64,000 bases of DNA from positions 2,800,001 to 2,864,000 of the forward strand of contig NZ_FSRS01000001.1 of assembly GCF_900142935.1 (NCBI RefSeq). The letters are read 5' to 3'. The translations under genes and the position numbers were made by a program. The notes beneath the pieces are model-generated. The model searched no databases and was not told the DNA's origin. It worked only from the letters and a program-made list of their open reading frames with translations. Of this stretch, positions 52,368 through 61,010 are shown one piece after another. The first letter of the stretch is position 1. Each line of letters opens with the position of its first letter. This DNA comes from Rhodovulum sp. ES.010. Its GTDB lineage: Bacteria; Pseudomonadota; Alphaproteobacteria; Rhodobacterales; Rhodobacteraceae.

Positions 52368-52444
52368 CGGAGTGTAGCTCAGCCTGGTAGAGCACTGTCT
52401 TCGGGAGGCAGGGGCCGGAGGTTCGAATCCTCTCACTCCGACCA
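52368..52444 (+). tRNA. tRNA-Pro (anticodon CGG)
   Basis: A 77-base cloverleaf with acceptor CGGAGTG pairing CACTCCG, D-arm GCTC...GAGC, anticodon stem CTGTC/GGCAG around the loop TTCGGGA (anticodon CGG, reading CCG), T-loop GGTTCGAATCC and an encoded CCA (52442-52444). The C1-G72 pair is typical of tRNA-Pro. It marks the left side of the lower-GC, IS-rich region. Confidence 0.95.
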
Positions 52445-52649
52445 ATAGAATAAAGGCTTCCAACCTTCGTTCGCGGTTTTCGATGCCCTGCGTTTCTGGG
52501 GCAGTCCCCGGATATGACATTTACTCAATCGAAACTGGGACGATTGGTCGGTCCTTATGGGATGCGCAGAATCGGCGGCTAAGGATATCGAGTCGCCGCG
52601 CCCGTCGGGGCGACGTCTGCGGGCCGGGGCATTGCCCCCCATGTTCGCA

Positions 52650-53015
52650 GTTCCTGATCATCCCGCCATGCCCAGTCCCTCGAGCCGTCTGGCGGGATCG
52701 AGCACGCGCATCGGGGTGTCATCGGAATACCCCAGATCGTCCTGTGCGGAATGTCGGCATGTTTGTTCGCCCTGACGTAGGCGATGCATCGGTCCTCGAG
52801 CCAACCATTCATCTCGGCAAACGATTTGAGCTTCGGGCGGGGCACGAAGAACCGGCGCCGGAGAACCCCCACCTGGTTCTCGACCTGCCCCTTTTCCCAG
52901 CCCGACGCCGGTGTGCAGGCGACTGGTCCACCAGATAGTGCCCGCACATCTGTTCGAGCCGGCGATTGTAGGCGCGATCCTTGCCGACAAAGATCGTGTC
53001 CACCCGCAGGGGCGC
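52650..53015 (-). pseudogene. IS21-family transposase (IstA) remnant
   Basis: The minus strand encodes pieces of the IstA catalytic region in different frames: VDTIFVGKDRAYNRRLEQMCGHYLVD, then after a one-base loss near 52930, VACTPASGWEKGQVENQVG and FVPRPKLKSFAEMNGWLEDR up to PHRTIWG, after which similarity fades. Start and C-terminus are missing and no IstB follows. It is a decayed insertion sequence. The bases between the tRNA and this remnant (52445-52650) show nothing recognisable. Confidence 0.8.
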
Positions 53016-53092
53016 ACTCCAGAAGAGACTTAACTTCTGAACGAGGACAATCCGGGGAGCAGGCCAATCAGGGGAAGTGGGTCTGTGACGAG

Positions 53093-53671
53093 TTAAAGAT
53101 AAGGAGGCGTGCAGGCGGAGACCACTATGGCAACTCGATCCGAAATATTGCGAAAGCGGTGCGGCTCGTGAGAATGAAACAAATAAGCATCCCCAGCCTT
53201 CAAGACCTTTGTGTGGTTCCCGACTGTTACCTCTAGTTCTCCAGACACAACGACACCGCCTTCGCTGGCCGGATGGGAAAGCATATCAGCGCCGGTATCC
53301 GCCCCCGGCTCGTAGGTCTCGTGCAATATCTGCAAACCAAAGTCCCTCGCATTGCCTACCTGTCTGAGAGTCAATCGTCCGATCGTGTCGACCCTGTCCG
53401 AGTAGATCCGTGACGTCAGGTCCTTAAGCTGGTCCGGCGTAAAGAACACATCGTCAGCCAGATTCGCCTCTGGCTCAAAAAACTCTGACATCCCGATGCC
53501 TAATCCGCCCAAGATTCTGCGCAGAGTGGCCACTGACGGGCTACTCTTATTCGTCTCGACCATCGATATCTGACCGTGAGGAACCCCGGCAGCCTCCGCA
53601 AGCTGTCTTTGGGATAATCCCTGTTTTGCTCGAAGTTCTCGCAGCCTTGCGCCCACGTCAAAATCGTTCAT
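53093..53671 (-). CDS. XRE-family regulator with cupin sensor domain
   Basis: DNA-binding regulator of 192 residues: helix-turn-helix at about 5-62 (LRELRAKQGLSQRQLAEAAG, VPHGQISMVETNKSSPSVAT) and a C-terminal cupin_2 domain (GGVVVSGELEVTVGNHTKVL, GDAYLFHSHEPHRFRN). PuuR-type members with this architecture control amine and amino-acid catabolism. ATG 53671 has GGAAGG upstream. It is divergent from the catabolic operon starting at 53792, which it probably controls. Base composition is lower in GC than the left part of the window. Confidence 0.9.
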   Translation of the reverse strand: MNDFDVGARLRELRAKQGLSQRQLAEAAGVPHGQISMVETNKSSPSVATLRRILGGLGIGMSEFFEPEANLADDVFFTPDQLKDLTSRIYSDRVDTIGRLTLRQVGNARDFGLQILHETYEPGADTGADMLSHPASEGGVVVSGELEVTVGNHTKVLKAGDAYLFHSHEPHRFRNISDRVAIVVSACTPPYL

Positions 53672-53738
53672 CGCTCTGCCTTCCACTACATCGGGCTATC
53701 GAATTTAGACCGAGCCGTCCTGGAAAAAAAGATTTGCG

Positions 53739-53758
53739 TAGCTCAAGATACAGAGCTA
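53739..53758. promoter_or_regulatory. Candidate operator between the XRE-cupin gene and the catabolic operon
   Basis: Inverted repeat TAGCTC (53739-53744) and GAGCTA (53753-53758) with an 8-base spacer, in the AT-richer 120-base divergent intergenic region. Its position, 34 bases before the operon's first ATG, suits repression by the divergent regulator. This is inferred from symmetry and position only. Confidence 0.45.
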
Positions 53759-53791
53759 AAGTGCTTGAAATATTGCGCACCAGAGGACACC

Positions 53792-55093
53792 ATGTCTCAC
53801 ACAGAGGAACTTAAGAACCGCCGCGACACTGCCGTCGCAAATGGGGTGTCCACGCGCGGCATCTATGCCGCCAAGGCAATGAACGCAGAGCTTTGGGATG
53901 TTGATGGCAAGCGGTTCATCGATTTCGCCGCCGGTATCGCCGTGAACAACACCGGCCACCGTCATCCTAAACTGATGGCCGCCGTGGCCGCCCAAGCCGA
54001 GCTTTTTGCCCACACGTGCTTTCACGTTGCGCCGTACGAGGGCTATGTGAAGCTGGCCGAGCGGTTGAACTCCTCGACGCCCGGCGCGTTCGAGAAGAAA
54101 ACGATGCTGGTGACAACCGGGGCCGAAGCCGTAGAGAACGCGGCCAAGATGGCGCGTGCTTATACCGGCCGGTCCGGTGTCATCGCGTTTTCCGGCGCGT
54201 TTCATGGCCGAACGCTGATGGGCATGGCGCTTTGCGGCAAGGTTACGCCCTACAAAAAAGCCTTTGGTACCATGCCTTCGGAGGTCTACCACGCAGCCTT
54301 CCCGAATACTTATCACGGTGTCACATCCGATATAAGCCTTGCCTGCCTTGATGAGTTGTTCCGCTCAACAATCGACCCTCAGCGAGTGGCCGCGATTATC
54401 ATCGAGCCGGTACAGGGCGAAGGCGGGTTCAATACCGCACCTGCAGAGTTTCTGCGCGGTCTGCGCGCGATCTGCGATACGTATGGCATCGTTCTGATCG
54501 CGGACGAGGTTCAGGCAGGTATGGCGCGTACCGGCAAGTTGTTTGCGATGGAGCACGCGGGCGTTGCCGCAGATTTGGTAACGATGGCCAAGGGTTTGGC
54601 CGGAGGCTTCCCCCTGTCCGCCGTGACAGGCCGGGCCGAGATCGTCGACGCCGCTCCGGCCGGTGGGATCGGGGGCACATATGCAGGCAACCCGCTGGCC
54701 GTTGCCGCCGCGAATGCCGTGCTAGATGTCATCGAGGAAGAGAAGCTGTGCGCCCGGGCCGAAGAGATCGGTGCCCGCATCTCCCAGCGCCTGAAAACCC
54801 TGTCAGAGCGGCAAGGCATGGAGTCCATCGGCGATGTCCGGGGCCTGGGGGCGATGATCGCGTTCGAGCTTGTAAGCGACCGCTCGTCGCGGACCCCGGA
54901 CGCGACTCTGACGCAGGCGATCGTGACAGAAGCCGAAGGGCGCGGGCTTATCATCCTGCCATGCGGCACCTACGGCAACGTTGTGCGCCTGCTGCCCCCA
55001 CTGACAACACCCATGGAACAGGTGGATGAGGCGCTCGACATTATCGAAGCGTCCATCGAGGCAGCCATCAACAAGATGGCTCAGGCCGCCTGA
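53792..55093 (+). CDS. Class III aminotransferase, 4-aminobutyrate/5-aminovalerate type (GabT-like)
   Basis: PLP-dependent omega-aminotransferase of 433 residues. Features: RGIYAAKAMNAELWDVDGKR, IDFAAGIAVNNTGHRHPKL, TGAEAVENAAKMARAYTGR, IIEPVQGEGGFNTAP, LIADEVQAGMARTG and the PLP Lys in VTMAKGLAGGFPLSAV. The pattern is that of GabT/DavT enzymes, which act on 4-aminobutyrate or 5-aminovalerate. First gene of the operon, followed after 15 bases by the acyl-CoA dehydrogenase. The glutaryl-CoA dehydrogenase neighbour favours the C5 substrate. Confidence 0.9.
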   Translation: MSHTEELKNRRDTAVANGVSTRGIYAAKAMNAELWDVDGKRFIDFAAGIAVNNTGHRHPKLMAAVAAQAELFAHTCFHVAPYEGYVKLAERLNSSTPGAFEKKTMLVTTGAEAVENAAKMARAYTGRSGVIAFSGAFHGRTLMGMALCGKVTPYKKAFGTMPSEVYHAAFPNTYHGVTSDISLACLDELFRSTIDPQRVAAIIIEPVQGEGGFNTAPAEFLRGLRAICDTYGIVLIADEVQAGMARTGKLFAMEHAGVAADLVTMAKGLAGGFPLSAVTGRAEIVDAAPAGGIGGTYAGNPLAVAAANAVLDVIEEEKLCARAEEIGARISQRLKTLSERQGMESIGDVRGLGAMIAFELVSDRSSRTPDATLTQAIVTEAEGRGLIILPCGTYGNVVRLLPPLTTPMEQVDEALDIIEASIEAAINKMAQAA

Positions 55094-55108
55094 GGAAGAG
55101 GACAGGAC

Positions 55109-56323
55109 ATGCCCACACACCTCTCACCGCAAAGCCGGCCGGAACTCGGTCATTTCGCCTGGGATGATGCGTTCCGTCTGGACGAGCAATTGACCGCAGA
55201 CGAACGCATGATCCGCGACGCAGCCCGTGCCTATGCGCAGGAAAAGCTTCAGTCGCGCGCGCTTGCGGCCTTTGAAGCGGAAGAGACCGATCCCGAGATT
55301 TTCCGCGAGATGGGCGAGATGGGGCTGATCGGCGTCACCACCCCGGAAAAGTATGGCGGCGTCGGTGCCGGTTATGTCAGCTACGGACTTGTCTCCCGCG
55401 AGATCGAGCGCGTCGACAGCGGGTACCGTTCGATGATGTCGGTGCAATCTTCCTTGGTGATGTACCCGATCTATGCTTACGGCTCTAACGCGCAACGTCA
55501 GAAGTACCTGCCGAAGCTGGCGAGTGGTCAATGGATAGGCTGCTTCGGATTGACCGAGCCGGATGCGGGCAGCGATCCGGGTGGGATGACGACCGTCGCG
55601 AAGAAAACCGCTGACGGATACGTCCTGTCCGGCACGAAAATGTGGATATCCAATGCGCCGATCGCCGACGTCTTCGTGGTTTGGGCCAAATCCGAGGCGC
55701 ATGGGGGCAAGATTCGGGGGTTTGTCCTTGAAAAGGGCATGAAGGGTCTTTCGGCACCCAAGATCGGCGCCAAACTTTCGCTGCGCGCTTCGATCACTGG
55801 CGAGATTGTCATGGACCGCGTTGAAGTGGGCGAAGATGCGCTTTTGCCGAATGTCGAGGGGCTGAAAGGGCCATTCGGCTGCCTGAACCGCGCCCGCTAC
55901 GGGATTTCCTGGGGCGCCCTCGGAGCGGCGGAATTCTGTTGGCACGCTGCGCGGCAATACGGGATGGACCGCAAACAGTTTGGTAAGCCGCTAGCGCAAA
56001 CGCAATTGTTCCAGAAGAAACTCGCCGACATGCAGACCGAGATCGCTTTAGGCCTGCAAGGCGCATTGCGTGTTGGCCGGTTGATGGAGGAAGGCAACGC
56101 TGCCCCAGAGATGGTTTCCATCGTCAAGCGAAACAATTGTGGGAAGGCCTTGGATATCGCGCGCATGTCTCGCGACATGCATGGCGGTAACGGCATTTCC
56201 AGTGAATTTCATGTAATCCGGCATATGGTCAATCTTGAAACTGTGAACACCTATGAAGGCACGCACGATATTCATGCGCTGATCCTGGGCCGTGCCCAGA
56301 CAGGTCTTCAAGCGTTCTTTTGA
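55109..56323 (+). CDS. gcdH: Glutaryl-CoA dehydrogenase
   Basis: FAD enzyme that oxidises and decarboxylates glutaryl-CoA to crotonyl-CoA. The 404-residue product shows features specific for GcdH among acyl-CoA dehydrogenases: [16 protein letters not shown] with the substrate-binding Arg, [25 protein letters not shown] segment ([17 protein letters not shown]), and the catalytic Glu in [17 protein letters not shown]. Second gene of the operon. Typical GcdH genes sit beside a CaiB-like CoA-transferase; here none is present. Confidence 0.93.
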
Positions 56324-56372
56324 CCATCGCGACCGAGGACGGTGAGTCGCGCGAAAATTCGGAGTGACTGTG

Positions 56373-57803
56373 ATGAAAAAGAACCTCGTTGCCGGGGAAT
56401 GGATCAGTGCGGCCGATTTCTCGGAAAATCTGAACCCGTCGGACATCTCGGATATCATCGGTCAGTACGCGCGCGGATCGGCAAACGACGTCGATACCGC
56501 GGCCCGCGCGGCCCGCGCGGCGCTACCGGCGTGGATCGCCAAAGGGCCACAAGCCCGGTCCGATCTGCTTGAGGCCGTTGCGAAGACGCTGATGGCCCGC
56601 GCGGACGAGATCGGCACATTGCTGGCGCGCGAAGAAGGGAAAACTCTGGCCGAAGCAAAAGGTGAGACGCTCCGCGCCGCACAGATCTTCCGGTTCTTCG
56701 CTGGAGAGGCTGTGCGAGTCGGCGGCGACGCGCTGCTTTCGGTCCGCCCGGGCGTGTCGGTTGAAGTCATCCGCGAACCGGTGGGCGTGGTCGGAATCAT
56801 CACGCCCTGGAATTTTCCGATCGCAATCCCGGCGTGGAAAATTGCGCCGGCTCTGGCCTACGGCAACACGGTTGTCATGAAGCCGGCCGACCTCGTTCCA
56901 GGCTGCGCACATGTTTTGGCCGAAATCTTGCATGCTTCCGGGTTGCCGCCGGGTGTCTTCAACCTTGTGATGGGGCGCGGATCGGTGGTTGGCGACGCGA
57001 TCGTCACGCATCCCGAGATTGACGCGATCAGTTTCACGGGCTCCGTCCCGGTCGGACGCGCGCTGGCCGTGTCTGCCGCGCAAGGCATGAAGAAAATCCA
57101 GCTGGAGATGGGCGGAAAGAACCCGATGGTGGTTCTGAACGATGCCGATCTGGGCTGTGCGGTTGATGCCTGCATCAACGGTGCGTTCTTCTCGACTGGC
57201 CAGCGCTGCACCGCGTCGTCCCGGCTGATCGTCGAGGATGGCATTCACGATGCTTTCGTGGAACAGCTGGTCGCCCGAATGCAGGCGCTGCGGGTCGGCA
57301 ATCCGCTAGATGCCGCGACGCAAATCGGCCCGGTGGTTTCGGCCTCGCAGTTGCAGGGGAACTTGGCCTATACGAAACTGGCTCGCGATGAAGGCGCGGA
57401 AGTTGTCGGCGGCGAACGGCTGAATGGTGAAACCGAGGGGTATTTCCAGCGCCCGGCAGTCTTCTTGAATGCGACGAATGAAATGCGGTCCAGCCGGGAA
57501 GAGATTTTCGGGCCATGCGCAAGTGTCATTCGCGCCGCGGATTTCGACGAAGCCTTGGCCTTGGCCAATGATACGGAGTTCGGTCTGAGTGCCGGGATTT
57601 GCACCGCAAGCCTGAAGAGCGCGCGGGCCTTTCGCCGACATGCGGCTGCCGGAATGGTCATGGTCAACCTGCCCACCGCCGGAGTCGACTACCACGTGCC
57701 ATTTGGTGGGCGCAAAGGCTCGTCCTATGGGTCTCGTGAACAGGGACGCTACGCCGCCGAGTTCTATACGACCGTCAAAACGGCCTACGAATTCGCGGGG
57801 TGA
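56373..57803 (+). CDS. NAD(P)-dependent semialdehyde dehydrogenase
   Basis: Aldehyde dehydrogenase of 476 residues. Catalytic features: TPWNFPIAIPAWK (Asn and Lys), FTGSVPVGRA, LEMGGKNP with Glu, STGQRCTASS with the catalytic Cys, and EEIFGP. The C-terminal GVDYHVPFGGRKGSSYGSRE segment is like 2-oxoglutarate-semialdehyde dehydrogenases. In context the likely substrate is the semialdehyde made by the upstream aminotransferase (glutarate or succinate semialdehyde). ATG 56373 follows GGAG at 8 bases; GTG 56364 is an alternative. Confidence 0.9.
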   Translation: MKKNLVAGEWISAADFSENLNPSDISDIIGQYARGSANDVDTAARAARAALPAWIAKGPQARSDLLEAVAKTLMARADEIGTLLAREEGKTLAEAKGETLRAAQIFRFFAGEAVRVGGDALLSVRPGVSVEVIREPVGVVGIITPWNFPIAIPAWKIAPALAYGNTVVMKPADLVPGCAHVLAEILHASGLPPGVFNLVMGRGSVVGDAIVTHPEIDAISFTGSVPVGRALAVSAAQGMKKIQLEMGGKNPMVVLNDADLGCAVDACINGAFFSTGQRCTASSRLIVEDGIHDAFVEQLVARMQALRVGNPLDAATQIGPVVSASQLQGNLAYTKLARDEGAEVVGGERLNGETEGYFQRPAVFLNATNEMRSSREEIFGPCASVIRAADFDEALALANDTEFGLSAGICTASLKSARAFRRHAAAGMVMVNLPTAGVDYHVPFGGRKGSSYGSREQGRYAAEFYTTVKTAYEFAG

Positions 57804-57807
57804 CGAG

Positions 57808-58911
57808 ATGACAGATGCCGCCATCTTGTCGATCAATCCCGGAACCACTACGACCCGCTGCGCTCTCTACGGGTGGTTGGGAACCGCGCTGAAGACCATC
57901 GCCGAAGAAGCGCTCGACCATGACGAAACGGTCATGGCGGGCTTTTCCACTATCGCCTCGCAGCTTGAGTTTCGGCGCCAGCACATCGAGACCTTTCTGA
58001 ACGAGCAGCTTGGCAGACATCGCCTTGTCGCCTGCGCCGGGCGGGGTGGGATGCTGACACCTGTGCCGTCGGGTGTGATTTCCGTCGACGAGGCGCTTGT
58101 CGAGTTTGCGCTGCACACGCCCGTCTATCACCACGCGAGCAACTTGGGCGCGCCTCTGGCTCATGGGATTGCCGCCCGTTATGGCGTCGGGGCCTTTGTG
58201 GTCGATCCGGTCAGCGTCGATGAGCTTGCGCCGGTTGCCCGTGTTTCGGGCTTTGCCGATATTCCTCGGTTCTCTTTTGTGCACGCACTCAACATCCGGG
58301 CCTGCGGACGCCGTCTGGCCCGCGAGATGGACAAGCCCTTCGATCGGTTGCGCGCGGTCGTGGCGCATCTTGGGGCCGGTTTTTCGATTGCCGCCTTGGT
58401 CGATGGGCGGCTTGTGGACAGCTCGAACCGCATGGAGATGTCGCCGTTTACACCCGAACGCGCAGGCGGTCTGCCGCCCTTGCCATTGATCGAGTTGTGT
58501 TATTCGGGGACGTATACGCGTGAAGAGTTGCTGTCCAAGCTGTATGGCAAAGGCGGTGTGTTCGGCCTGTTGGGCACGAAGGACATTCGACGTGTCGAGG
58601 CAATGATAGAGGACGGCGATAGAAAAGCTGCGCTGGTGTATGAGGCGATGCTGTATCAGATCGCCAAAGCCATTGGTGCAATGGCTTCCGTTGCCGATTT
58701 TGACTTGGACGGGGTCATCCTGACGGGCGGTCTTTCCAACAGCGCTCGTGCCACCGCCTATCTGAGGCACAAACTATCCCGCCTAGCGCCGGTGCATGTC
58801 TATCCCGGAAGCGATGAATGCCGGGCACTGGCCGAGGGGGTTGCTCGCGTGCTGGCGGGCACAGAAGCACCTTTGTCCTGGCCAGTCTCCAGCTCGAGGC
58901 AGGTTGCGTGA
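57808..58911 (+). CDS. Butyrate-kinase-like acyl kinase
   Basis: ASKHA-fold carboxylate kinase of 367 residues. Motifs: ILSINPGTTTTRCALY (phosphate 1), CAGRGGMLTPVPSGVISVDE, RFSFVHALNIRACGRRLA, HLGAGFSIAALVDGRLVDSS (phosphate 2) and VILTGGLSNS (adenosine). It departs from typical Buk at HLGAGFS (usually GGGIS) and at SNRMEMSPFTPERAGG, where Buk has an NALDGEGP-type segment, so the acyl specificity may differ. It starts 4 bases after the dehydrogenase stop and its TGA overlaps the next ATG. It could make ATP from an acyl phosphate or use ATP to activate an acid. Confidence 0.88.
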   Translation: MTDAAILSINPGTTTTRCALYGWLGTALKTIAEEALDHDETVMAGFSTIASQLEFRRQHIETFLNEQLGRHRLVACAGRGGMLTPVPSGVISVDEALVEFALHTPVYHHASNLGAPLAHGIAARYGVGAFVVDPVSVDELAPVARVSGFADIPRFSFVHALNIRACGRRLAREMDKPFDRLRAVVAHLGAGFSIAALVDGRLVDSSNRMEMSPFTPERAGGLPPLPLIELCYSGTYTREELLSKLYGKGGVFGLLGTKDIRRVEAMIEDGDRKAALVYEAMLYQIAKAIGAMASVADFDLDGVILTGGLSNSARATAYLRHKLSRLAPVHVYPGSDECRALAEGVARVLAGTEAPLSWPVSSSRQVA

Positions 58912-59825
58912 TGGGGGTCAGAAGCTTCGACGAACTGCGCGAACGGGCGCTGACCCGTGCACCACTTCGGCTTGTCGTGGCCGGTGGCGAGGGCCCCGAG
59001 ATTGCCGCCGCAGTCATTGCCGCGCTTGAGAACGGGCTTGCCGATCGCGTTCTGGTGGCTGGCGATCCCTCAAAGATGACGCCATTGTATCCCGATCCAT
59101 TGACATCCGCAGTTACCTTTCTGTCCGCGCTGGATGCCGCTGATTGCGCAAGCCATGCTATCGCTGCCATTCATGAGAATCTTGGCGACGTCCTGATGAA
59201 GGGTCATGTCGACAGCACGTCGTATCTTCGGGCGATCATGAACCGCGATCACGGGCTCAGAAGCGGCAGTACATTGTCCAATGTGACGGTTGCCGAAATG
59301 CCGTCGTTGAACCGGCTGATCGCGGCAACGGACAACGGTATCGTCCCGTCCCCGGACCTGGCGCAGAAACGCCGGATCATCCTCAACACCCTGCCGCTGT
59401 TTCGCGGTTTGGGCATTGCCCCGGTTCAGGTGGCCGCGGTCTGTGCGACCGAGAAGGTATCGGATGCGCTGCCTGCGACCCGGGACGCTGAAGCGCTGGC
59501 CCGCGAAAGCAACGATGGCGGCCTGCCCGGCTTCGAGGTCGGCGGCCCAATGGGCTATGACGTCGCCGTCAGCGCACAAGCCGCGCGGATCAAGGAGCTT
59601 GGCGGGGTTCCCGCTGCGGGGCGGGCCGACCTGCTTTTGTTTCCCACGATCGACGCCGCCAACAGCGTGGCAAAGGCATGGAAGTTCCAGGGACAGGCCC
59701 GGACAGGTTCGATTGTCCTAGGCGCGAAGGTTCCGGTTTTGCTGAACTCGCGGTCGGACTCGGTAGAGCGCCGCATCGACGCGCTTCTGCTTGCGGCGGC
59801 GGTGTTGGACGGAGGCCAAGCATGA
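58911..59825 (+). CDS. Phosphate butyryltransferase-like acyl phosphotransferase
   Basis: PTA/PTB-family enzyme of 304 residues exchanging acyl-CoA and acyl phosphate. Features: RLVVAGGEGPEIAAAVIAAL, LMKGHVDSTSYLRAIMNRDH, LRSGSTLSNVTV, GGLPGFEVGGPMGYDVAVS, LLFPTIDAANSVAKAWKF and the closing LLNSRSDSVERRIDAL. The ATG overlaps the kinase stop (TGATG) and the TGA overlaps the next ATG, so the three genes are tightly coupled. With the kinase it forms a complete acid-acyl phosphate-acyl-CoA module. Confidence 0.9.
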   Translation: MGVRSFDELRERALTRAPLRLVVAGGEGPEIAAAVIAALENGLADRVLVAGDPSKMTPLYPDPLTSAVTFLSALDAADCASHAIAAIHENLGDVLMKGHVDSTSYLRAIMNRDHGLRSGSTLSNVTVAEMPSLNRLIAATDNGIVPSPDLAQKRRIILNTLPLFRGLGIAPVQVAAVCATEKVSDALPATRDAEALARESNDGGLPGFEVGGPMGYDVAVSAQAARIKELGGVPAAGRADLLLFPTIDAANSVAKAWKFQGQARTGSIVLGAKVPVLLNSRSDSVERRIDALLLAAAVLDGGQA

Positions 59826-60040
59826 ACGTTCAAACAGTCGGCGTCGTCGGGGCTGGCCAGATGGGCAATGGCATCTCGCATGTCTTTGCCCCTTCGGGTT
59901 TCGATGTGATCCTGAGCGACATCTCCGAAGACGCCTTGGCCCGCGCGCGCAAAGATCGAGGCAAACACGGCGCGGCAGGTCGCAAAAGGGCAGATCACCG
60001 AGGACAACCGCGATGATGCCCTGAAACGGTTGGCGCGGTT
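59822..60040 (+). pseudogene. 3-hydroxyacyl-CoA dehydrogenase, frameshifted and truncated by IS debris
   Basis: The N-terminal NAD-binding region is clear: MNVQTVGVVGAGQMGNGISH and FDVILSDISEDALARA. At the CG-repeat 59941-59950 the frame breaks; one base further on it resumes as AKIEANTARQVAKGQITEDN and DALKRLARF, consistent with loss of one CG unit. Near 60035 the similarity ends at an IS66 fragment on the other strand. Only about 70 of the usual 290 residues remain, so the gene is dead. It was the sixth gene of the operon and overlaps the upstream stop by four bases. Confidence 0.88.
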
Positions 60041-60224
60041 CGCCGCTGGCATCGGCTCCGGCGAAGAGCCAGTTTTTCCGACCGATCACCACGGGCTTGA
60101 CCTCGTGGCGCTGAGCGACCTGGGCGACCATCGCGCGGTCCACACCGACAGAGGCCACGATTGACAGCTTCTGATCATCACTCCAGCGCCGACGCCGGTC
60201 GACGCCAAGGATCTCGCCTCTCAT
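60033..60224 (-). mobile_element. IS66-family remnant (fused TnpA and TnpC fragments)
   Basis: Minus strand: MRGEILGVDRRRRWSDDQK up to AQVAQRHEV is the helix-turn-helix N-terminus of the small IS66 protein TnpA (60224-60099). It runs directly in frame into VVIGRKNWLFAGADASGE, a piece from the catalytic region of the large transposase TnpC. The sequence between, including TnpB, has been deleted. The inner end abuts the broken 3-hydroxyacyl-CoA dehydrogenase. Confidence 0.75.
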
Positions 60225-60263
60225 GCAGCATCCGCTAAGACACGTCGCTAGAGCGCGTCGCAT

Positions 60264-61010
60264 TTAATCGGCCTCATAGCCGGCCGCCTTGAAGTAGTTG
60301 TAGCATTCTTGGTCTGAGACGAGGTCGCAGACATGGCCGACGGCCGCCCAAAGTTGATCGTAGGTTCGCGCGGCTGCCTTCCTTATGAGCGACTTCAGCT
60401 TTGAGAACGCCATTTCGATGGGGTTCAGGTCCGGGCTGTAAGGCGGCAAGAACAGGAACCAGGTGCCAATCGCACGCAGGGACGCCGCTGCGGCCGGGGC
60501 CTTATGGCTCGACAGGTTGTCGAGAATGACAACGTCGCCTTTGCGCAGCGTCGGCCCCAGCTGGGTTTCGATGTAGAGGGCGAACATCTCGGCGTTCATC
60601 GCCCCGTCGATGATCCATGGTGCGTCGAGCCGGTCGTGGCGCAGGGCCGCGACGAAGGTCTGGGTGCGCCAATGTCCGAACGGCGCGTGATCGACGAGGC
60701 GCTGCCCGAACGGGGCCCAGCCGGTCGTCTTGGCCATGTTGGTTTTGACCGAGGTCTCGTCCACAAAGGCCAGCCGGTCCAGATGGTTGGCCATGAAGGG
60801 CTGGCGTTTCGCGATCCAGATGCGCCGCAGATCGGCGACATCCTTGCGCTTCTGCTCAAGCGCCTGCAGGTCTTTTTTCGTGCGTCAGACCAAGCCCGCG
60901 CAGCACCCGCCAGATCGTGCCGCGATGGACCTCGATGCCATGGGTTTCGGCCAGCTCAACGGCCAATTCATCGAGCGTGATCTCGCCCTTGGCGGCGACG
61001 CGGGCTTCGA
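60264..61010 (-). mobile_element. IS630-family transposase, frameshifted and 5' truncated
   Basis: The C-terminal catalytic part (60264 to about 60878) carries the DDE motifs: LAFVDETSVKTNMAKTTGW, VVILDNLSSHKAPA and LPPYSPDLNPIEMAFSKLK, ending YFKAAGYEAD. Upstream in another frame is the preceding part, ITLDELAVELAETHGIEVHR and RVLRGLGLTHEK. The frames switch at an A6 run (T6 at 60873-60878 on the plus strand), as in two-frame IS630 elements or by mutation. The N-terminal DNA-binding part expected further upstream is missing, replaced by IS3-like sequence. Confidence 0.82.

Follow-up and report, generated by a model that had tools for sequence, protein, structure and literature searches.

How would glutarate be activated in a bacterium whose operon appears to make it and to consume its coenzyme A (CoA) ester, but holds no glutarate CoA-transferase beside the gene for the consuming enzyme? 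The question is raised by six plus-strand genes of Rhodovulum sp. ES.010, within a stretch of 64,000 nucleotides (contig NZ_FSRS01000001.1, positions 2,800,001 to 2,864,000; hereafter the window, by whose numbering coordinates are given). In order they encode an aminotransferase (AT), glutaryl-CoA dehydrogenase (GcdH), an aldehyde dehydrogenase (ALDH), a kinase of the butyrate kinase family (Buk), a phosphate acyltransferase (Ptb) and a broken 3-hydroxybutyryl-CoA dehydrogenase (HBD). The cassette is likely a self-contained 5-aminovalerate route in which Buk and Ptb activate glutarate in place of a CaiB-type transferase.

In such a route AT would convert 5-aminovalerate to glutarate semialdehyde and ALDH would take this to glutarate, from which Buk would form glutaryl phosphate at the expense of ATP, with Ptb exchanging the phosphate for CoA to give glutaryl-CoA. 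The pair would thus stand in for the transferase at about equal energetic cost. GcdH would decarboxylate glutaryl-CoA to crotonyl-CoA, with electron-transfer flavoprotein as acceptor, and crotonyl-CoA would pass through 3-hydroxybutyryl-CoA to acetoacetyl-CoA. Since the local HBD is broken, that last step must come from elsewhere in the genome, where an intact homologue (L093:3000-3863; L-numbers are compared loci and G-numbers genomes) is 69% identical to the HBD of L010, a locus of Ruegeria sediminis. One argument for the assignment of Buk and Ptb is the single gap that is left between the product of ALDH, an acid, and the substrate of GcdH, a CoA ester; every other enzyme of the operon already has its step. 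Gene identities, gene order, their recurrence and the exchange with the transferase are observed, whereas all the substrates and directions given, glutarate as the substrate of Buk and Ptb in particular, are inferred from them.

Most telling is a natural swap: Buk-Ptb and a CaiB transferase alternate in the same gene sets. Among 244 genomes sampled from the order, 14, that of the window included, have an orthologue, at least 64% identical, of the XRE-cupin regulator that is divergent from the operon, and two more have a match at 49-52%. Nine of the 14 are beside CaiB (L097, L098 and L107-L113, eight of these also with GcdH), three are clustered with Buk (the window, L119 and L120), two have neither and none has both. 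At L106 the regulator and aminotransferase are followed by a contig edge, and L105 (5071-11057), where HyuB-HyuA adjoins regulator-aminotransferase and neither Buk-Ptb nor CaiB was found in the fetched 19 kb, may be a lactam module that has no activation system nearby. L108 is instructive: CaiB lies next to the regulator, which accompanies AT-GcdH-ALDH-HBD; only a few bases separate ALDH from HBD, and Buk and Ptb are absent. The ALDH of this locus falls within the group of Buk-linked ALDHs, beside those of L026-L028. On trees of the shared genes, which like the Buk tree below are quick trees with many weak forks, the label Buk or CaiB changes twice for the regulator, twice for AT, six times for GcdH and once for ALDH (where there is one CaiB row).

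The exchange recurs under a different regulator. LysR stands beside GcdH-CaiB at L095, L114, L115 and L116, and beside GcdH-Buk-Ptb at L019, L031, L034 and L035; L044 has LysR beside GcdH-Buk, where the contig ends. The gene order that the preliminary description of this DNA had proposed to seek in other genomes, gcdH beside buk and ptb with no caiB, is found at these Buk loci, whose fetched flanks contain no CaiB. Other arrangements are GcdH-CaiB with neither type of regulator (L096, L103), CaiB about 2.5 kb away (L104, L121) and, in two Buk genomes, LysR beside GcdH with neither Buk nor CaiB (L099, L100); GcdH is solitary at L101 and L102. Beyond the LysR gene of L031, L034 and L035 lies a second aldehyde dehydrogenase, 37-39% identical to that of the window.

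Does the company kept by the kinase fit? Scanning genome contigs yielded 147 loci with relatives of Buk, of which the best 80 were kept; 37 close proteobacterial loci were then compared, under fixed thresholds of identity, with 42 more distant ones. L032, whose Buk has 60% identity and a different context, was excluded from the close group before counting and later grouped with the distant clade (its addition would make the GcdH count 16/38). GcdH, AT or ALDH is present at all 37 close loci, individual counts being Ptb 36, ALDH 30 (relatives at least 60% identical), AT 24, regulator 23, HyuA 18, GcdH 16, HBD 12, HyuB 10, EtfB 9, LivK 9, EtfA 7 and LysR 5. The 42 distant loci have Ptb at 40, HBD at three and EtfB, EtfA and ETF-QO at one each, with GcdH, AT, ALDH and the regulator at none at the thresholds used. 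Among the 26 well-flanked close loci (at least 5 kb to the left and 3 kb to the right of Buk) AT and ALDH are each present at 20 and GcdH at nine. The counted loci are kin, so Fisher's test on them is only a guide. CaiB was not found in the fetched flanks of any of the 37 close or 42 distant loci. The close clade is rare, with six of the 244 genomes scoring above 600 bits and, among the matches listed, the rest below 70. On a Buk tree of the window, 36 of the 37 close loci, L032, 41 of the 42 distant loci and T. maritima (L069, with its Buk in two frames, was left out), local GcdH needs eight changes when L024 and L041 are omitted and the LysR-GcdH context needs three, so that the association of GcdH with Buk is recurrent. 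This recurrence, and the presence of CaiB where Buk-Ptb is absent, make the route from 5-aminovalerate to glutarate with Buk-Ptb activation for GcdH, which was the chief proposal of the preliminary description, the best supported by comparison of genomes.

The six closely spaced or overlapping genes of that description are all present, in the order it gave. Five are full-length open frames (AT 433 amino acids, GcdH 404, ALDH 479, Buk 367, Ptb 305). The gap between ALDH and Buk is 4 bases; Ptb overlaps Buk by 4 bases if it starts at GTG, or by 1 base if it starts at the next ATG, and shares 4 bases with HBD. HBD is indeed broken: the intact HBD of L010, of 291 residues, aligns over 1-43 in one reading frame and over 42-71 in a second, and the homology ends there, before the transposase pieces; the fragment's best family match is 3-hydroxybutyryl-CoA dehydrogenase. 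AT exceeds the GABA-aminotransferase cut-off of NCBIfam (TIGR00700, 555 versus 507 bits) and has PuuE/GabT as its nearest solved structures. The best solved match of GcdH is 4w9u (685 bits; named acyl-CoA dehydrogenase). Entries named glutaryl-CoA dehydrogenase follow at 633-551 bits, with others at 399-337 and the so-named 3mpi at only 187, and the first solved entry of another kind scores 223, placing the protein closest to glutaryl-CoA dehydrogenases, though it falls below the cut-off of the equivalog NF045552 (glutaryl-CoA dehydrogenase Acd; 224 versus 470). Its motifs SGYRS and NTYEGTHD contain R107 and E383, which we take to be the arginine that binds the substrate carboxylate and the catalytic glutamate. 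ALDH has as its best NCBIfam match 2-oxoglutarate-semialdehyde dehydrogenase, at 524 bits and below the cut-off of 770. Buk is above the butyrate kinase cut-off (TIGR02707, 369 versus 289 bits) and matches the butyrate kinase 1x9j at 270 bits. The regulator reaches 129 bits with NCBIfam PuuR, below the cut-off of 211, its Pfam HTH_3 and Cupin_2 matches being above theirs.

Table 1. Features of the operon and its borders, in window coordinates
Feature	Position	Strand	Basis or proposed role
XRE-cupin transcription regulator, PuuR-like	53093..53686	-	Upstream of the operon and divergent from it
AT, class III omega-aminotransferase, GabT/DavT-like	53792..55093	+	Proposed: 5-aminovalerate to glutarate semialdehyde
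GcdH, glutaryl-CoA dehydrogenase	55109..56323	+	Solved-structure matches, motifs
ALDH, aldehyde dehydrogenase	56364..57803	+	Proposed: glutarate-semialdehyde dehydrogenase
Buk, butyrate-kinase-family acyl kinase	57808..58911	+	Proposed: glutarate kinase
Ptb, phosphate acyltransferase	58908..59825	+	Proposed: glutaryl phosphate to glutaryl-CoA
HBD remnant (3-hydroxybutyryl-CoA dehydrogenase)	59822..60032	+	tblastn with intact HBD of L010; PF02737
Transposase helix-turn-helix piece, inside open reading frame 59718-60263	60090..60197	-	PF01527, 26.1 bits (cut-off 24.1)
Partial IS630-family transposase adjoining broken HBD	60264..60794	-	NF033545, 125 bits (cut-off 100); PF13358

Where would the 5-aminovalerate come from? 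One or both subunits of a caprolactamase-like lactamase, HyuA and HyuB, are encoded at 19 of the 37 close loci. The pair of L037 matches 6YRA, the caprolactamase of Pseudomonas jessenii (PMC8453981), at 848 and 943 bits, and the related OplAB of P. putida is reported to be strongly active on delta-valerolactam, with low activity on caprolactam and a trace on gamma-butyrolactam (PMC11033972). From these two observations the likely input is 5-aminovalerate, possibly derived in relatives from valerolactam, and in many of them delta-valerolactam would feed the route. The likeness to the lactam catabolism of OplAB in P. putida and CapAB in P. jessenii is that homologues of the subunits adjoin the cassette in relatives; the difference is that in the window no lactamase gene adjoins it. 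The only hydantoinase-B match in the source genome lies in a frame of 1367 residues, whose parts share 33% and 27% identity with the lactamase subunits of L037.

Several observations weigh against glutarate activation by Buk-Ptb. The best NCBIfam match of Ptb is phosphate butyryltransferase (TIGR02706), at 212 bits against a cut-off of 410.5; because that cut-off is not reached while that of PF01515 is (111 bits versus 24), Ptb is classed merely as a phosphate acyltransferase of the PTA/PTB family, its best solved match being 7vg9 at 155 bits. The source genome has a second gcdH (L090:6813-8012, genome C1:269812-271011), 77% identical to the first, with no match to CaiB, Buk or LysR in the 16 kb fetched around it. 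GcdH is not local at 21 of the 37 close loci, nor at 17 of the 26 well-flanked ones, and at these the CoA ester might be something other than glutaryl-CoA; a restriction of Buk to GcdH loci was rejected on the same count. Buk-Ptb is also not always the sole replacement: of 36 close-kinase genomes, four have by coordinates a CaiB beside a gcdH (G251, G255, G268, G270) and five have one that shares at least 73% identity with the CaiB of L097; coexistence of the two systems is therefore possible. Co-occurrence across genomes was discarded as a test and alone proves nothing, with gcdH and this CaiB family nearly universal in the sampled order (239 and 241 of 244) and present in 33 and 35 of the 36 close-kinase genomes. 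The three of these without gcdH at the E-value used (L020, L022, L028) show just a gcdH end, cut by the contig, and adjacency was taken from the best matches of genome-wide scans, those for gcdH and CaiB among them, solely where coordinates were shown. Finally, the operon may be unused in this genome, as transposase pieces adjoin it and one of its genes is already broken.

The alternative that survives best, although we consider it unlikely, has a CaiB-type CoA-transferase encoded elsewhere activating glutarate, leaving Buk and Ptb to a co-regulated monocarboxylate (butyrate, propionate or valerate). The preliminary description had held that neither known glutarate route is present. This stands for the operon, and CsiD/GlaH (PF08943) has no match in the whole genome (of 14 control genomes only that of Escherichia coli matches), but CaiB-family matches occur at three places elsewhere. 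One of these is related to succinate-hydroxymethylglutarate CoA-transferase, and at 63-70% identity to 17 CaiBs of the relatives' clusters it also counts against our reading. The score of Buk above the butyrate kinase cut-off would suit a monocarboxylate, and Buk/Ptb have been proposed to serve growth on butyrate in Geobacter metallireducens (PMC2700814). Judged by coordinates, all three places lie away from both gcdH genes, and the alternation of Buk-Ptb with the transferase in the same gene sets of relatives is left unexplained by a monocarboxylate role.

Less probable still is a C6 substrate (caprolactam, 6-aminocaproate or adipate), for which Buk and Ptb would make adipyl-CoA and HBD would be a 3-hydroxyadipyl-CoA dehydrogenase. 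The match of the relatives' neighbouring lactamases to the caprolactamase CapAB and the lack of a local GcdH at so many close loci favour it. A GcdH, as found in the window and at 16 of the 37 loci, would serve no purpose with adipyl-CoA; OplAB, the relative that has been tested, prefers valerolactam, with its six-membered ring, to caprolactam (PMC11033972); and the HBD fragment is closest to the 3-hydroxybutyryl-CoA family. Reverse operation, which the preliminary description had offered as its alternative, with ATP made from butyryl-CoA formed out of crotonyl-CoA as is usual for Buk/Ptb in clostridial fermentation, found no support and is very improbable, there being no butyryl-CoA dehydrogenase in the operon, HBD and EtfB beside close Buk relatives (12 and 9 of 37) pointing to crotonyl-CoA oxidation, and the named relatives being mainly Rhodobacteraceae-type bacteria, which are mostly aerobic.

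For glutarate activation by Buk and Ptb the nearest known system is gcdR-gcdH-gcoT of P. putida KT2440, whose GcoT we take to be CaiB-type. It has in common with the cassette GcdH and the downstream fate of its product and, in the LysR-type relatives, the LysR gene beside gcdH; here Buk and Ptb replace GcoT, the regulator is an XRE-cupin protein, and the operon itself includes AT and ALDH. In P. putida gcdH is followed by gcoT, for a glutarate-CoA transferase, and glutarate is either activated by GcoT or hydroxylated (PMC6667623); the same layout is seen at the four LysR loci with GcdH-CaiB. The hydroxylation route (CsiD/GlaH, LhgO) shares the entry compound, glutarate, and differs in that its CsiD has no counterpart in the source genome. 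Clostridial ptb-buk, which converts butyryl-CoA into butyrate (as with the PTB of C. acetobutylicum), likewise pairs the two enzyme families in a single operon, while the proposed dicarboxylate substrate, the activation direction, the catabolic operon with GcdH and the score of Ptb below its family cut-off set the cassette apart.

A natural dicarboxylate kinase acting with a glutaryl phosphotransacylase would be a new route to glutaryl-CoA, and that it is one, belonging to a lactam/5-aminovalerate gene set and exchanged with CaiB under two kinds of regulator at least, XRE-cupin and LysR, seems to us probable. Among the papers listed by searches of an open-access library that lacks most subscription journals, none reports in its title or the opening of its abstract an activation of glutarate by a kinase and phosphotransacylase, and the available portions of a 2026 review of glutarate production name no glutarate kinase (PMC12861294). 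If the Buk relatives, called butyrate kinase where their source names them, act on glutarate, then those annotations are wrong, as are metabolic models that rely on them. The pair would also provide natural enzymes for making or degrading glutaryl-CoA, with uses in nylon-5 monomers and lactam waste. Nature, moreover, offers here an experiment in non-orthologous replacement, with one gene set served by either of two unrelated activation systems.

The cassette lies in a region of unusual composition: G+C is 60.4% over 53093-60016 and 68.8% in the remaining window, and third-position G+C in the genes of 53093-60016 is 0.59-0.73. With a tRNA-Pro (52368-52444) on one side of the low-G+C region and the transposase pieces on the other, the stretch 52400-61000 is probably an acquired island whose 3' end is decaying. 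The IS630 transposase match spans positions 144-297 of the 299 in NF033545. The first-listed inverted repeat near it (59981-59998 and 60977-60994, 78%) is partly within the HBD homology, so clear element ends are not defined, and a promoter and terminator scan gave no signal above chance. The open reading frame 52579-53067 beside the tRNA has no Pfam match and by eye resembles the end of an IS21-type transposase.

As for the kinase itself, the close clade is set apart by only seven columns (13, 17, 40, 43, 101, 166 and 212). To that extent the earlier statement that the kinase differs holds, but its further point, that this fits a new substrate, gains no proof from the columns. By comparison with acetate kinase, R17 presumably belongs to a phosphate motif and S212 lies close to the acyl pocket; as none of the columns shows a dicarboxylate site, they were not used as evidence. 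On a more distant Buk branch Amphritea balenae (L058:9001-14764) has Buk-Ptb-EtfB-EtfA-ETF-QO with no GcdH match. In two gammaproteobacterial Buk-Ptb loci, L049 and L054, the upstream genes look by eye like ones for ring hydroxylation and a hydrolase, a context in which another non-butyrate use of the kinase family is possible.

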